Positions 6,396 through 31,460 of a stretch of 64,000 nt of DNA are shown here, piece after piece. Made by a program: the position numbers and the translations under genes. Every line of letters begins with the position of its first letter. The stretch's first letter is position 1. The stretch is from contig UCKU01000001.1 of the NCBI GenBank assembly GCA_900473185.1, forward strand, positions 62,001 to 126,000, given 5' to 3'. This DNA comes from Hyphomicrobiales bacterium. Its GTDB lineage: Bacteria > Pseudomonadota > Alphaproteobacteria > Rhizobiales > Rhizobiaceae. The notes beneath the pieces are model-generated. The model did not search any database and had not been told where the DNA came from. It saw nothing but the letters and a program-made list of their open reading frames with translations.

Positions 6396-6440
6396 CGCCC
6401 TGCTTGCGCCCGGAAGGCCGGGCTTCTTGGAAGAGAAGGT

Positions 6441-6537
6441 GGGAGGCTGGCACGATGACCCGTGCCGGGGCTCGTTAGGGCTGCTTCCTTCCGGACCTGA
6501 CCCGGTTGGCGAGTGGCTCGTCCACCACCAACCTCCC
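6441..6537 (-). ncRNA. ffs: Signal recognition particle RNA (4.5S, small bacterial type)
   Basis: On the minus strand the segment folds as a single long hairpin closed by GGGAGG (6532-6537 side) and CCTCCC (6441-6446 side). The apical part contains the invariant SRP domain IV: GGTCAGGTCCGGAAGGAAGC, with the asymmetric and symmetric internal loops that bind Ffh. The terminal stem is rich in GC as expected. It is about 97 nt long, the size of bacterial 4.5S RNA, and lies just upstream of dnaX, its usual place in rhizobia. The RNA pairs with Ffh to target nascent membrane proteins. Confidence 0.95.
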
Positions 6538-13061: not shown

Positions 13062-13152
13062 AGACTGCTGCTCTGCGCGGGGATCGCCGAGGTCTAGCAG
13101 CTAATCGCCAGCCATGACAAATGCCTTGGATATAATATCTTTCGCGGCGCAA

Positions 13153-13177
13153 CAAAAAAAGCGGGCTAGGCCCGCTT
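13153..13177 (-). terminator. Intrinsic terminator upstream of the AEC gene
   Basis: A six-to-eight-base-pair GC stem with a three-base TAG/CTA loop, followed on the minus strand by seven T. On the plus strand it is followed by CTTTTCC, so it could work weakly both ways, but no plus-strand gene precedes it. Confidence 0.8.
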
Positions 13178-13340
13178 TTCCGCATCCGGTCCTGCCGGAT
13201 AGCCGGTTGCGATACTGCCAGTTCATCCGTGGTCAGCGTCGTCCGGTAAGGTTGAAGGGATCATCCCTCCCATACCCGGCCATACGAGATACCTGCATGC
13301 CGGTCTTCCTGATGCTGTTTTTAGGCAGGCACGGTGACAG
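13153..13340 (-). ncRNA. Candidate small RNA with intrinsic terminator (family copy 1)
   Basis: The 404 bases between the AEC gene and adenosine kinase hold no convincing protein gene. On the minus strand they end in a strong terminator (AAGCGGGC/GCCCGCTT stem at 13160-13177, then seven T). About 40 bases before it is TGACCACGGATGAACTGGCA (13216-13235), and 26684-26703 on the plus strand has the same 20 bases with one change, again shortly before a terminator. Between the two lie GC-rich inverted segments (ACCGG/CCGGT). The 5' end is not defined; about 13340 is a guess. It could instead be a long AEC leader. Confidence 0.4.
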
Positions 13341-13465
13341 CGACATGACGAATAAACGGCAGTTTTGCGAAGACTTGGAAGGCGATGTGCTGTTTATTCT
13401 TCCAATACCGGCAAATTTCGCTAAGACCCATTACCGGCTATCACAAATCCGGGACTTCCCATTTC

Positions 13466-14458
13466 ATGACCAAATTCGATGTTCTGACAGTCGGCAACGC
13501 AATCGTCGATATTATCGCCCGTTGCGACGACCAGTTCCTCATTGACAACAAGATCACCAAGGCAGCGATGAACCTCATCGATGCCGACCGCGCCGGACTG
13601 CTCTATTCTCGCATGGGGCCGGCACTCGAAGCTTCCGGCGGCAGCGCCGGCAATACGGCTGCAGGCGTTGCAAGCCTCGGCGGCAAGGCCGCCTATTTCG
13701 GCAAGGTCGCGGAAGACCAGCTCGGCGAGATCTTCGCGCATGATATCCGTGCTCAGGGCGTTCACTACCGGACCGAGGCCAAGGGCAAATTTCCGCCGAC
13801 CGCACGCTCGATGATTTTCGTCACCGATGACGGCGAACGCTCGATGAACACCTATCTCGGCGCCTGCGTCGAACTCGGGCCTGAGGATGTCGAAGCGGAT
13901 GTGGTGGCGCAAGCCAAGGTGACGTATTTCGAAGGTTATCTCTGGGATCCGCCGCGTGCCAAGGAAGCGATCCTCGATTGCGCCCGCATCGCCCACGAGA
14001 ACGGCCGCGAAATGTCGATGACGCTCTCCGACAGCTTCTGCGTCGATCGCTACCGCAGCGAATTCCTGGACCTGATGCGCTCGGGCAAGGTCGATATCGT
14101 CTTTGCCAACCGCCAGGAGATCCTGGCGCTTTACGAGACTGACGATTTTGAGGAAGCGCTGAACAAGATCGCCAAGGATTGCAAGATCGCCGCCGTGACC
14201 ATGAGCGAGGACGGTGCCGTGATCCTGAAGGGCAACGAGCGCCATTACGTCGATGCGATCAAGATCAATGAAGTGGTCGATACGACCGGCGCCGGCGACC
14301 TCTTCGCCTCAGGCTTCCTCTACGGCTATACGCAGGGCCGCACGCTGGAAGACTGCGGCAAGCTCGGCTGCCTTGCCGCCGGCATCGTCATCCAGCAGAT
14401 CGGCCCGCGGCCGATGAAGTCTCTGTCCGAAGCTGCAAAGGAGGCAGGCCTTATTTAA
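13466..14458 (+). CDS. Adenosine kinase (PfkB/ribokinase family)
   Basis: Phosphorylates adenosine (or a related nucleoside or sugar) with ATP. The 330 residues carry both PfkB signatures: the early G-G-S-A-G-N-T-A-A-G-V-A-S-L-G-G block (about residues 56-71) and the late D-T-T-G-A-G-D-L-F-A-S-G-F motif (about 271-283) with the catalytic Asp and anion-hole glycines. Homologues annotated as adenosine kinase begin at M-T-K-F-D-V-L-T-V-G-N-A, so the start is set at 13466 although the frame is open further upstream. Its last eight bases overlap the convergent SH3 gene. Confidence 0.9.
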   Translation: MTKFDVLTVGNAIVDIIARCDDQFLIDNKITKAAMNLIDADRAGLLYSRMGPALEASGGSAGNTAAGVASLGGKAAYFGKVAEDQLGEIFAHDIRAQGVHYRTEAKGKFPPTARSMIFVTDDGERSMNTYLGACVELGPEDVEADVVAQAKVTYFEGYLWDPPRAKEAILDCARIAHENGREMSMTLSDSFCVDRYRSEFLDLMRSGKVDIVFANRQEILALYETDDFEEALNKIAKDCKIAAVTMSEDGAVILKGNERHYVDAIKINEVVDTTGAGDLFASGFLYGYTQGRTLEDCGKLGCLAAGIVIQQIGPRPMKSLSEAAKEAGLI

Positions 14459-26368: not shown

Positions 26369-26480
26369 TTAGGGGCGATAAGGCCGGCGATCGCGATAAT
26401 AATAATCCGGCCCGCGGCGCCGGCGGTCGCGATCACTGTAGAAGTCGCGATTGCGGTAATAACGATCCCAATAGGGGTCG
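26369..26480 (-). pseudogene. Possible remnant of a Tyr/Arg-rich small protein
   Basis: On the minus strand the last 35 codons before a TAA at 26369 encode a repetitive tail, Y-W-D-R-Y-Y-R-N-R-D-F-Y then D-R-D-R-R-R-R and Y-Y-Y-R-D-R-R-P-Y. Small secreted rhizobial proteins often end like this, but the frame upstream carries no signal peptide and no suitable ATG; only a TTG begins a short L-I-A-V-T-F-S segment. It may be a decayed gene that lost its front by frameshift, or a chance repeat. Confidence 0.3.
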
Positions 26481-26599
26481 ACGCTGAAGGTGACGGCGAT
26501 CAAGGTTTTCCGCGGGGTCTTGAAATGTGAAAGGCGGCTTCCGATATGAGGTTTCAGAAATCGCGGCCCGGAAATGTTGTACGCGTTATCTGTTGTATC

Positions 26600-26756
26600 G
26601 TTTCCGCGATCTGGTTGAACTAGCCGTTTACCGGCAGTAAACCTTTCGGGATCACTCTGGCTGTGCACTATCCGCTTCTCCTTTGACCACGGATGTACTG
26701 GCACTGAGATGAGGCGGATAACGGAAGGCCGGTTTGCTCCGGCCTTTTTGTTTGCA
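26600..26756 (+). ncRNA. Candidate small RNA with intrinsic terminator (family copy 2)
   Basis: The 574 bases between the small gene and the M20 peptidase have no clear protein gene on the plus strand, yet end in two tandem plus-strand terminators (26725-26750 and 26767-26801). Twenty-two bases before the first terminator stem is TGACCACGGATGTACTGGCA (26684-26703), matching the copy 1 core at 13216-13235 (19/20), which also precedes a terminator. Outside this core the two loci differ, and the short flanking GC repeats are only structurally alike. The 5' end is unknown; 26600 is a guess. Confidence 0.4.
26725..26750 (+). terminator. Intrinsic terminator, candidate sRNA copy 2
   Basis: AAGGCCGG pairs with CCGGCCTT around TTTGCT, followed by five T and G-TTT. 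Confidence 0.8.
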
Positions 26757-26766
26757 GATTTCGGAT

Positions 26767-26801
26767 GGCGTGCCGCGCAGACCGCGGGCACGCCTTTTTT
26801 G
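26767..26801 (+). terminator. Second tandem plus-strand terminator
   Basis: GGCGTGCC pairs with GGCACGCC, followed by six T. On the minus strand no T-run follows the stem, so it is not the terminator of the M20 peptidase gene that ends three bases away. Confidence 0.7.
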
Positions 26802-28378: not shown

Positions 28379-30763
28379 ATGTTCTCAGTTATTGCCTGCA
28401 TCAGGGACAACCACGACTGGCGGCTTGTCATTGCCGCCGCAATTGTCTGCCTCGTCGGCAGCCTGACGACAATGCTCCTTCTCTTCCGTGCCCAGGAATG
28501 CGATGCTGGCCAGCGAAAGCTCTGGATCGCTACGTCAGCCTTTGCCTGCGGCGTCGGCGTATGGGCAACACACTTCATCGCCATGCTCGCTTATGACGGC
28601 GGTATGCCAATCAGCTACGATCTGGGCCTCACGTTTCTCTCGGTATTCCTGTCGATTTTCGGCGCCTGGGTGGCCATCTTGATCGCGTCGGAGGGCCGGA
28701 CCGGCTATTCTTTCGCTTTCGGTGGCGTGCTGATGGCGTTTGGCATCATGGCCATGCATATGACTGGCATGCAGGCGATCGAGGCCCAGGCCGTCGTCGT
28801 CTATGATGCCTTTATGTCGGTCGTCGCTTTCTGCTCCTGTGCGGCTCTGGCAACCATAGCCTTCCTCGCCTTCTTCAAGCTGAAGGGCATGAAACGCTTT
28901 GCCGCATCCTCCGGCGCCTTCGTGCTGGCGATCTGCACGCTGCATTTCATCTCGATGAGCAGCATTACATTGGTGCCGGACGCGACGCGCGAGGTGCCGG
29001 CGATGACGCTTCAGCCGGAGGTGCTCGCCGTAATTGTCATGGCTGTCGCAACCGGTCTCATCCTCATGGCCTTCGGCGCGGTCTTCCTGGAAAGCCATCT
29101 GACTGATCTTCGCGGCCTCGCCAATGTTTCGCAGGAAGGGCTCGTCATCCTGCGAGAAGGCAAGATCATCGACACCAATGAACGCTTCCTGGCCCTCTCC
29201 GGCTGGAAGCTCTCGGAACTCACGGGCAACATTCCCTCGTCCGTGCTGGCTCTCCTTCACGCTGAGCGGGAGAGCGAGCATAAGGAAATGCTGTTGATCA
29301 CCAAAGACGAGAGGGAAATCCCCGTCGAGGTTGTCATGCGGCGGATCGTTTATCGCGGGCGCCATTGCGACGTTCTTGTCGTCCGCGACCTGACCGAGCG
29401 CAAGCGTGCCGAAGAGATGATCGAGCATCTCGCTCATCATGATGTTCTGACGGATCTACCGAACCGTTCGCTTTTCGACACCCGCATTCGCCAGGCTCTG
29501 CAGGTCGCTGAGTGCAAGCGGGCGCAGGTTGCCGTCTTCTATATCGACCTCGATCGCTTCAAGGCCGTCAACGATATTTTCGGTCACGCCGAAGGCGATC
29601 GCATCCTGCGCAAGGTCGCAGCGATCCTCAAGCGTTGTGTCGACCAGGATGATACGATCGCGCGTCTTGGCGGCGACGAATTCGCCGTCGTCCAGCCGAA
29701 CAAGCAGCAACCCGATGCTGCACGTCGCCTTGCAACACGCATCATCGACGAATTCGCTGCCGAGATGGATACCGCCCGCGATCCGACGGCCGTCGGCGCC
29801 AGCATCGGCATCGCGCTTTATCCTGCGGATGGAGACTCTGCCGAAGAGCTCTGCAACAATGCCGATACCGCTCTTTATCGCATCAAACATGCCGGGCGCG
29901 GTGCTGCCTGCTTCTTCGACGCGGAAATGGACGAGTCGGTGCGTGCCCGCCGCCAGATCGAACACGAGCTTCGCCACGCCATCACCCGCAATCAGCTCCA
30001 TGTGAGCTATCAGCCGATCCTCGATGCACGCAGCGGCGAGATCAACGGCTATGAAGCCCTGATGCGCTGGAACCGGCCGGGCCATGGCATGAGCGAGCCG
30101 GATATTTTCATTCCGATCGCCGAAGAAAGCGGCTCGATCGTCCAGCTCGGCGAATGGATCCTGCGCGAAGCCTGCATGGAGGCCGCCCGCTGGCCTCAGC
30201 CGCTGTCGATCGCCGTCAATGTCTCTCCGGTTCAGTTTCTCTTGCCCAATCTTTGCCAGCAGGTGGCCGGGATTCTCAAGGAGACAGGTCTTGCGCCGGA
30301 ACGGCTGGAACTGGAGATCACCGAAGCTGCGCTCATCCGCGATCGCAACCGGGTCATGAATACGCTTCAGCGCCTGCGCGGCCTCGGCGTGCGCATCGTC
30401 ATGGATGATTTCGGCACCGGCTTCTCCTCACTGTCCAACCTGCGCTCCTTCCCCTTCGACAAGATCAAGGTCGATCGTAGCTTCACCGGCATTCTGGAGC
30501 ATGATGCAGGCGCTCGCTCGATCGTGCGCGCCATCATCGGGTTGGGGCATAGTCTCGGTATGCCCGTCGTCACTGAAGGCGTCGAAACGGAGATGCAACG
30601 CCAGATCGTCGTGGAAGAAGGTTGTACCCAGTTGCAGGGGCTGCTGCTTGGAAAACCGGATATCGAGCCGAGCATCAAGATTGCCGCTCGCGAAAACTTC
30701 CTTTTGGCACATACCGAAACGGAGGGGACACAAACGAAGCGCAACCGCGCGGCGGCGGAGTGA
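28379..30763 (+). CDS. MHYT-PAS-GGDEF-EAL c-di-GMP signalling protein
   Basis: A 794-residue membrane protein. Residues 1-240 form the seven-helix MHYT sensor with three repeats (A-T-H-F-I-A-M, G-I-M-A-M-H-M-T-G-M, L-H-F-I-S-M), thought to bind copper and sense gas or redox. A PAS domain follows (about 250-340), then GGDEF (motif G-G-D-E-F at 431-435, intact) and EAL (E-A-L at about 559-561). The EAL domain has its metal and catalytic residues: N-V-S, E-I-T-E, D-D-F-G-T-G, K-V-D, E-G-V-E-T. Both cyclase and phosphodiesterase activity are therefore possible. The end Q-G-L-L-L-G-K-P departs slightly from the usual Q-G-Y-L-F-G. An AGGTGG precedes the ATG. Confidence 0.95.
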   Translation: MFSVIACIRDNHDWRLVIAAAIVCLVGSLTTMLLLFRAQECDAGQRKLWIATSAFACGVGVWATHFIAMLAYDGGMPISYDLGLTFLSVFLSIFGAWVAILIASEGRTGYSFAFGGVLMAFGIMAMHMTGMQAIEAQAVVVYDAFMSVVAFCSCAALATIAFLAFFKLKGMKRFAASSGAFVLAICTLHFISMSSITLVPDATREVPAMTLQPEVLAVIVMAVATGLILMAFGAVFLESHLTDLRGLANVSQEGLVILREGKIIDTNERFLALSGWKLSELTGNIPSSVLALLHAERESEHKEMLLITKDEREIPVEVVMRRIVYRGRHCDVLVVRDLTERKRAEEMIEHLAHHDVLTDLPNRSLFDTRIRQALQVAECKRAQVAVFYIDLDRFKAVNDIFGHAEGDRILRKVAAILKRCVDQDDTIARLGGDEFAVVQPNKQQPDAARRLATRIIDEFAAEMDTARDPTAVGASIGIALYPADGDSAEELCNNADTALYRIKHAGRGAACFFDAEMDESVRARRQIEHELRHAITRNQLHVSYQPILDARSGEINGYEALMRWNRPGHGMSEPDIFIPIAEESGSIVQLGEWILREACMEAARWPQPLSIAVNVSPVQFLLPNLCQQVAGILKETGLAPERLELEITEAALIRDRNRVMNTLQRLRGLGVRIVMDDFGTGFSSLSNLRSFPFDKIKVDRSFTGILEHDAGARSIVRAIIGLGHSLGMPVVTEGVETEMQRQIVVEEGCTQLQGLLLGKPDIEPSIKIAARENFLLAHTETEGTQTKRNRAAAE

Positions 30764-31305: not shown

Positions 31306-31460
31306 CTGAAAAACAAAGCCGCCATGGCCTGGAGGATGGCCATGGCGGCTTGAAAATGGGGACAAAGGCCCGGAGAGGGGGATGAGGCCTTTGTCCAAGC
31401 CTGACGCGGCGGGGGACAAGCCGGCTATCAGACCCGCGGCGCGATCAAACGCCGGTAGGT
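31306..31460 (-). ncRNA. Alpha-r7 family trans-acting small RNA
   Basis: Between marR and polA the minus strand folds into stacked hairpins and ends in a strong terminator: GCCGCCATGGCC / GGCCATGGCGGC arms (31349-31338 and 31329-31318) followed by TTTGTTTTTC. The preceding hairpin, GGACAAAGGCC / GGCCTTTGTCC (31396-31386 and 31370-31360), exposes a loop with CCCCCTCTCC, an anti-Shine-Dalgarno-type sequence expected for an Hfq-dependent regulator of translation. Structure, loop motif and position next to polA fit the alpha-r7 (Smr7C) sRNAs of Rhizobiales. The 5' end is estimated. The family assignment is from memory and was not checked by a covariance search. Confidence 0.7.

Follow-up and report, generated by a model that had tools for sequence, protein, structure and literature searches.

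From its sequence, an intergenic gap of a Rhizobium genome probably encodes a small RNA with a hairpin that elsewhere sits at the end of cold-shock (csp) mRNAs, and the promoter of this RNA looks phosphate-starvation-activated, of the PhoB type. The gap lies in the window, by which we mean the whole stretch of 64,000 nucleotides that was analysed (contig UCKU01000001.1 of assembly GCA_900473185.1, positions 62,001 to 126,000). An earlier note on this DNA had proposed that two unrelated gaps share a 20-nt core, TGACCACGGATG(A/T)ACTGGCA. This core was confirmed at 13235–13216 on the minus strand (copy 1) and at 26684–26703 on the plus strand (copy 2), with 19 of 20 nucleotides identical, and the window contained no third core with up to three mismatches (expected mean 0.01; none of 100 shuffles had two). 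Two is the right number for the window; the genome as a whole carries eight exact cores. Both cores sit in gaps between recognisable genes and their flanks are unalike, as had been described; the frames that overlap them, e.g. 13114–13545 (plus strand) and 26369–26791 (minus strand), are mechanical and without family support. The predicted terminators were also present, each as a G+C-rich hairpin and a T run 3' of the core, approximately 40 nt away for copy 1 and approximately 21 nt for copy 2. The copy-1 terminator was missed by a simple pattern scanner, which reported none between 13050 and 13470, perhaps because A-U and G-U pairs extend the stem into the T run that follows it, an extension also present in the folds.

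The core was kept in relatives. With up to two mismatches it was present in 118 of 151 Rhizobiaceae genomes, compared to 2 with the reversed control, and the lack of conservation that the earlier note had named as counting against an RNA did not materialise. Order-wide, a pattern that left pairs 1–20 and 6–16 free and allowed at most one mismatch matched 101 of 297 genomes (17 with the reversed control). Among the matches listed, 108 sequences had no mismatch under this pattern, which let each side of the two pairs vary freely: pair 1–20 was CG in 58, TA in 46, TG in 3 and CA in 1, and pair 6–16 was AT in 86, GC in 20, GT in 1 and AC in 1. The 73 of these listed sequences that came from outside the own family were alike in pair behaviour. 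The bulged A was nearly invariant, and the variable position of the loop was T in 90, A in 13 and G in 5 of the same 108 listed sequences. Among 80 fetched Rhizobiaceae cores (17 distinct sequences), both sides had changed in four of the five pairs and 95.3% of the cells were pairing, compared to 87.9% in shuffles; owing to the relatedness of the sequences and to the Rhizobiaceae pattern, which tolerated up to two mismatches, these covariation counts overstate independence. Conserved and covarying in these alignments, the core behaves as a hairpin under selection, which bears out the idea of a selected core of an RNA family.

Six of the eight exact cores in the own genome start 13–23 nt 3' of the stop codon of a csp gene; no such gene precedes either of the two copies in the window. 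In correction of the earlier note, the six csp-linked cores are 3'-UTR elements of cold-shock genes. The genome has 11 CSD domain hits; the core was absent within 170 nt after the stop codon at four csp loci (five domain hits). A csp gene was located close upstream of 34 of 80 cores from 22 Rhizobiaceae genomes, which were hand-picked and non-random among the listed matches, and upstream in 15 of the 30 loci returned by the Rhizobiaceae core scan itself. For other families of the order the figure was likewise 15 of 30 fetched loci, made up of 13 of 21 zero-mismatch and 2 of 9 one-mismatch loci. Class-wide, 29 of 289 genomes were matched, compared to 6 with the reversed control. Among the 27 loci that were read class-wide, all seven zero-mismatch loci outside the order followed a csp gene, one of them frame-broken, so with no mismatch the hairpin belongs to csp 3'-UTRs outside Rhizobiales as well; none of the 20 one-mismatch loci followed a csp gene, and the far-off single-mismatch matches look like chance. 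Closely spaced cores were also observed: the starts of a csp-linked core and of a stand-alone core with a GAAC loop (L128 and L129, G105:C1:2804962–2805446) are separated by 465 nt in genome G105, the stand-alone one having a PhoB-like box that is weak, with 4 mismatches, and pairs with a wider spacing, of 1.0 and 1.4 kb, were present in G057 (L133, L134) and G097 (L152, L153). The paired cores look like stand-alone copies duplicated beside an older core.

The predicted copy-1 sRNA is approximately 160 nt long (13153..13312, minus strand), its 5' end being placed from the promoter box and the −10 element by means of the 22–25 nt distance between box and transcription start site (TSS) reported in PMC3616915. 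All of its parts are on the minus strand. Stem-loop 1 (13276..13303) has two pairs with compensatory changes and is followed by stem-loop 2 (AGGGAUGAUCCCU, 13254..13270, from the fold), the covarying core hairpin UG-A-CCA[CGGAUGAAC]UGGCA (13216..13235), which has a bulged A and a 9-nt loop (loop sequence CGGAUGNAC), stem-loop 4 (UCCGGcaggaCCGGA, 13185..13199, from the alignment fold) and the intrinsic terminator GCGGGCCUAGCCCGC-U7 (13154..13175; stem 13175–13161, T run 13160–13154). Folding of the copy-1 sequence from the window gave −64.7 kcal/mol (z −4.0 versus shuffles). RNAalifold, applied to 30 aligned loci of the genus, returned stem-loops 1, 2 and 4, the terminator, and the core hairpin within a longer helix; the two pairs of stem-loop 1 had changed on both sides in six sequences each. 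Against the Rfam family ar35, copy 1 reached 17.4 bits (cutoff 45) and aligned to model positions 56–99 only, and by this comparison it was filed as a divergent relative with an ar35 core and not as an ar35 member. Other Rfam matches on the copy-1 stretch (Bp1_162, STnc320, sR2 and cHP) were below cutoff, with E values from 0.092 to 6.7, and were discarded. Elsewhere in the window, we observed a strong match to ar7, another alphaproteobacterial sRNA (31313–31457, minus strand, 118.3 bits), a bacterial small SRP RNA (6439–6536, minus strand, 59.9 bits) and a gene for a long protein with GGDEF and EAL motifs recognised by eye (28379–30763, plus strand).

Copy 1 has a fixed genomic place. Its neighbours are a gene for an AEC-type membrane transport protein (PF03547; 12114..13061, minus strand) and, divergently oriented, a gene for a PfkB-family, adenosine-kinase-like kinase (13466..14458, plus strand), which we take to be adk. 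The gap was matched in all of 100 Rhizobium genomes, own included, the weakest match being 57 nt long (E 1.9e-4). The best 30 of these 100 loci were fetched and aligned from promoter to terminator: adk and/or the AEC gene adjoined copy 1 in all 30 (both in 24, AEC only in 5, adk only in 1), and the variable loop position was A in 27. One core (L069) has one loop base fewer and thus escaped the core pattern. Among 30 adk loci across the family, eight had the core, all eight with the AEC gene beside it and one of them (L203) with a variant helix; among the adk gaps of 60 further genomes, less close in adk, no core was found with a pattern that a loop change would escape. The occurrence of copy 1 beside adk is limited by lineage: the 8 positive loci among the 90 adk loci examined all belong to the 30 closest in adk. 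The variant L203, in the adk–AEC gap of G017, forms a straight helix with the same loop and without the bulged A, GUCAUCA[CGGAUGUAC]UGGUGAC, so the bulge may be dispensable. In G057, a core (L132) has the AEC gene beside it together with a PhoB-like box with 2 mismatches, and adk of that genome is without an upstream core (L201); the core and the AEC gene thus seem to travel together.

Upstream of copy 1, a PhoB-type box, TCGTCAT-GTCG-CTGTCAC (13334..13351, minus strand), occupies the −35 position with 3 of 14 mismatches to CTGTCATN4CTGTCAT, and a −10-like element, CTAAAA (13319..13324, minus strand), follows 9 nt 3' of it. Within the window alone the box has no significance (4 matches with up to 3 mismatches versus 3.5 expected), and the argument for PhoB therefore rests on relatives. 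All 30 genus loci have a box near the core, at a nearly constant place, with 2, 3 and 4 mismatches in 14, 14 and 2 loci, respectively; shuffles of these loci reached up to 4 mismatches in 3.8% and up to 3 in 0.5% of cases. Since the 30 loci are not independent, the box was examined in a wider set. Each of the eight core-bearing adk loci had a box with 0–4 mismatches, compared to a single box with 4 mismatches among the 22 core-less loci, the others having 5–7; the 60 further, core-less adk gaps had 3 mismatches in one case, 4 in seven and 5–7 in the rest. A scan of named genomes for the core with a GAAC loop returned at least 119 loci, comprising 60 linked to adk or AEC, 56 others and 3 short of upstream DNA. 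Among those listed, a box with up to 4 mismatches was present at 58 of the 60 linked loci, which span Rhizobium, Neorhizobium, Allorhizobium and Ciceribacter, among others, versus 4 of the 56 other cores. Two of these four belong to Aureimonas psammosilenae (exact box) and Ensifer sp. Root278 (3 mismatches).

The TA of the −10 element was found at one fixed spacing from the box in 43 of 43 aligned sequences, with a C before the TA in about half, and at a single spacing in 59 of the 60 linked loci of the full listed set; the box had been a selection criterion for the loci and the −10 element had not. The pstS-like gene of the own genome (PBP_like_2), which we take to be pstS, has a PhoB box with one mismatch and a CTAG at the box-to-−10 spacing of copy 1. 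When 46 csp-free cores were compared with 34 csp-linked ones, PhoB mismatches differed at a borderline level (rank test, p 0.051), and a box with up to 3 mismatches occurred at 7 of 46 versus 0 of 34 (p 0.019). The layout taken as the mark of PhoB regulation, a box at −35 with a −10 element at fixed spacing, was thus found across relatives, and is not significant in the window alone. A further PhoB-like box (L412, G000:C76:384–401) was seen directly 5' of a 75-codon frame, which resembles a gene for a small protein of the DUF1127 type.

Copy 2 is a known RNA: it belongs to ar35 (RF02346; 26651..26753, plus strand, 51.6 bits over the full model, gathering score 45), the SmrB35/SmelB053 family of Sinorhizobium. 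The proposal of an RNA family was supported, and the family is one already described rather than an unrecognised one. The core hairpin of copy 2 (26684..26703, plus strand, from sequence and fold) is followed by an intrinsic terminator (26725..26749, plus strand; stem 26725–26746, T run to 26749). This stretch was matched in all of 60 Rhizobium genomes, own included, and an M20 peptidase gene adjoins it in only 19 of 30 fetched loci. A TTAA-N7-TTAA motif, which resembles a CtrA site, was located 55–57 nt 5' of the core, exact in 15 and with one mismatch in 12 of the 30 loci; shuffles of these loci gave an exact motif in 0.1% and one with a single mismatch in 0.5%. The own genome has degenerate CtrA-like sites (TGAACTAGCCGTTTA, TTTACCGGCAGTAAA; 26616..26641, plus strand) with 2 mismatches to TTAAN7TTAA, a level attained by approximately 15% of shuffles and found also in its two nearest relatives among the copy-2 loci. 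Scored against the consensus reported for S. meliloti, TAA-N7-TTAAC (PMC3616915), 17 of the 30 loci were exact, 9 had one mismatch and 4, including the own genome, had two. A CtrA-like box with up to one mismatch was present at 9 of 46 csp-free versus 0 of 34 csp-linked cores (p 0.009). Exact TTAA-N7-TTAA motifs were also noted upstream of stand-alone cores of other genera (L118, L127, L152, L163, L172, L174, L184 and L191), hinting at CtrA control in several lineages.

We give an even chance to the reading that copy 1 is a PhoB-promoted sRNA and that the stand-alone copies are signal-driven decoys for a reader of the hairpin on csp mRNAs. Copy 1 would be transcribed leftward in this strain, from the PhoB-type promoter between the adk-like and AEC transporter genes, as an RNA of approximately 160 nt. 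A putative factor, for which a protein that binds RNA or takes part in its decay is the likeliest candidate, would read the hairpin where it follows csp genes. The stand-alone RNAs, whose loci are both conserved in the genus, would present the same hairpin and compete for this factor when their own regulator fires, namely PhoB upon phosphate starvation for copy 1 and probably CtrA, with the cell cycle, for the copy-2 orthologs; the PhoB-type layout of the one and the CtrA-like box of the other both recur in relatives, where many loci are related and the counts overstate independence. We infer that decoy action of this kind would shift Csp levels with PhoB and CtrA signals. Joining a csp hairpin to a phosphate-starvation-like promoter, copy 1 may serve to signal phosphate scarcity to the cold-shock genes. 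By assigning signals to the decoys, this extends the 'interceptor' suggestion made in 2011. The response of csp genes to phosphate reported in PMC8829014 and the link between CspA5 and ctrA reported in PMC5928217 fit the decoy reading and prove nothing. A wider version, in which one RNA-binding factor of Alphaproteobacteria recognises the bulged-A hairpin as an 'address tag' on csp mRNAs and on decoys under PhoB or CtrA, such that competition would feed the phosphate and cell-cycle state into the level of RNA chaperones, is possible and distinctly less probable.

The main rival is pairing with mRNAs outside the csp leaders, copy 1 being a trans-acting antisense sRNA with the loop GGAUGNA as the seed on its targets, perhaps together with Hfq. 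An exposed conserved loop, an own promoter and a terminator with a U tail would suit such an RNA, as would the precedent of GspR of S. meliloti, a base-pairing sRNA with three stem-loops that represses its targets through stem-loops (PMC5928217), and TCATCC occurred in 7 of 43 csp coding regions versus 2.0 expected. A covarying stem and a nearly invariant bulged A are, however, more than a seed requires, and the complement of the loop was not enriched near csp starts (GTNCATCCG in 0 of 43; CATCC in 3 of 43 versus 8.6 expected); we regard this rival as unlikely. Pairing of the loop in cis with the csp leader was rejected, as there was no enrichment of the loop complement. The hairpin could instead be an element of csp mRNA ends only, serving stability or processing, with the stand-alone copies as functionless leftover duplicates. 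This would agree with the cores that lie 13–23 nt after csp stop codons in the own genome and with the csp-linked and stand-alone cores of G105, which are 465 nt apart as duplication predicts; it is made more unlikely still by matches to copy 1 in all 100 and to copy 2 in all 60 of the Rhizobium genomes searched, the own one among them, by the compensatory changes in stem-loop 1 and by the conserved, dedicated promoter elements.

Two further readings of copy 1 have little in their favour. A small protein read from the conserved GGCATG of its transcript, a motif without change across the 30 aligned loci, is very improbable, since indels shift frames and ends and the resulting peptides range from 4 to 49 residues, with ends that fall in each of the three frames as counted from the core; the small ORF was rejected because its reading frame is not conserved. 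Among decoys of this kind the sponge for CsrA/RsmA is the best-known precedent, and here it is the least probable reading of all. The hairpin loop contains a GGA, and CACGGAUGU resembles what we take to be the CsrA site consensus, but CsrA (PF02599) was found in only 1 of 101 Rhizobiaceae genomes and is absent from the own one, compared to a core in 118 of 151; with the gene missing from the own genome, CsrA is excluded as the reader of the loop here. The sole CsrA gene among the 101 genomes searched is at L086 (G011). Should the decoy reading be true, phosphate starvation, the cell cycle and cold-shock chaperones would be linked in nitrogen-fixing and plant-associated bacteria. The PhoB-type promoter and the CtrA-like box give concrete conditions under which to seek the RNA, and the covarying hairpin is an exact bait for its factor.

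The link between this hairpin and csp 3'-UTRs in Rhizobiales is already on record: the family study of 2011 described the conserved loop GGAUGUA together with 33 related 3'-UTRs in Rhizobiales, 29 of these being from cold-shock genes, proposed an Hfq-linked regulation of mRNAs as well as 'interceptor' RNAs, and called the function of the SmelB053/ar35 RNAs unclear (PMC3927594). SmrB35 was reported as a 139-nt RNA with a mapped 5' end and a 3' end assigned to the terminator, and was approximately 4-fold up with luteolin (PMC2780559); a later review lists SmelB053 with RpoD and RpoH1/2 motifs and three copies, and its entry gives no function (PMC7143759). In the literature found, supplements aside, no PhoB- or CtrA-linked member of the family is named; table S1 of PMC3927594 may list the R. 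etli copy 1, and a term search of the main text of the Rhizobium etli tiling-array paper (PMC2881028) gave no mention. Judging from the literature searched, supplements aside, the following seem to be new: copy 1 and its PhoB-type promoter, the presence of a CtrA-like box at orthologs of copy 2, the covariation as measured here, and the occurrence of the hairpin outside Rhizobiales.

Both copies share with SmelB053/SmrB35 the hairpin with its GGAUGUA-type loop, an intrinsic terminator 3' of the core, the multi-copy nature and the related csp 3'-UTRs. The loop GGAUGUA is exact in copy 2, whereas copy 1 has GGAUGAA, differing at the position that varies in the family. Copy 1 further differs in its outer helices, in one extra stem-loop between core and terminator, in its fixed place beside adk and AEC and in its PhoB-type promoter. 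The csp 3'-UTR elements were likened by the authors of the 2011 study to the 3'-UTR of E. coli cspA, which is bound by Hfq (PMC3927594); cspA mRNA 3'-UTR elements likewise consist of a hairpin and a terminator just 3' of the csp stop codon, and were reported in that paper for Rhizobiales, whereas the csp-linked hairpin described here occurs also outside the order. With rhizobial PhoB promoters, whose box is CTGTCAT-N4-CTGTCAT (PMC2573895) and lies 22–25 nt upstream in 16 of 33 cases with a TSS (PMC3616915), copy 1 has the box at −35 in common, and it would be a non-coding gene. Phosphate stress under nitrogen deficiency is reported to elicit a response of cspA1, cspA3 and cspA7 of S. meliloti (PMC8829014), and CspA5 promotes the translation of ctrA in this organism (PMC5928217). 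The GspR–CspA5–CtrA feed-forward loop of S. meliloti also connects an sRNA with a cold-shock protein and CtrA, GspR coming from another locus.
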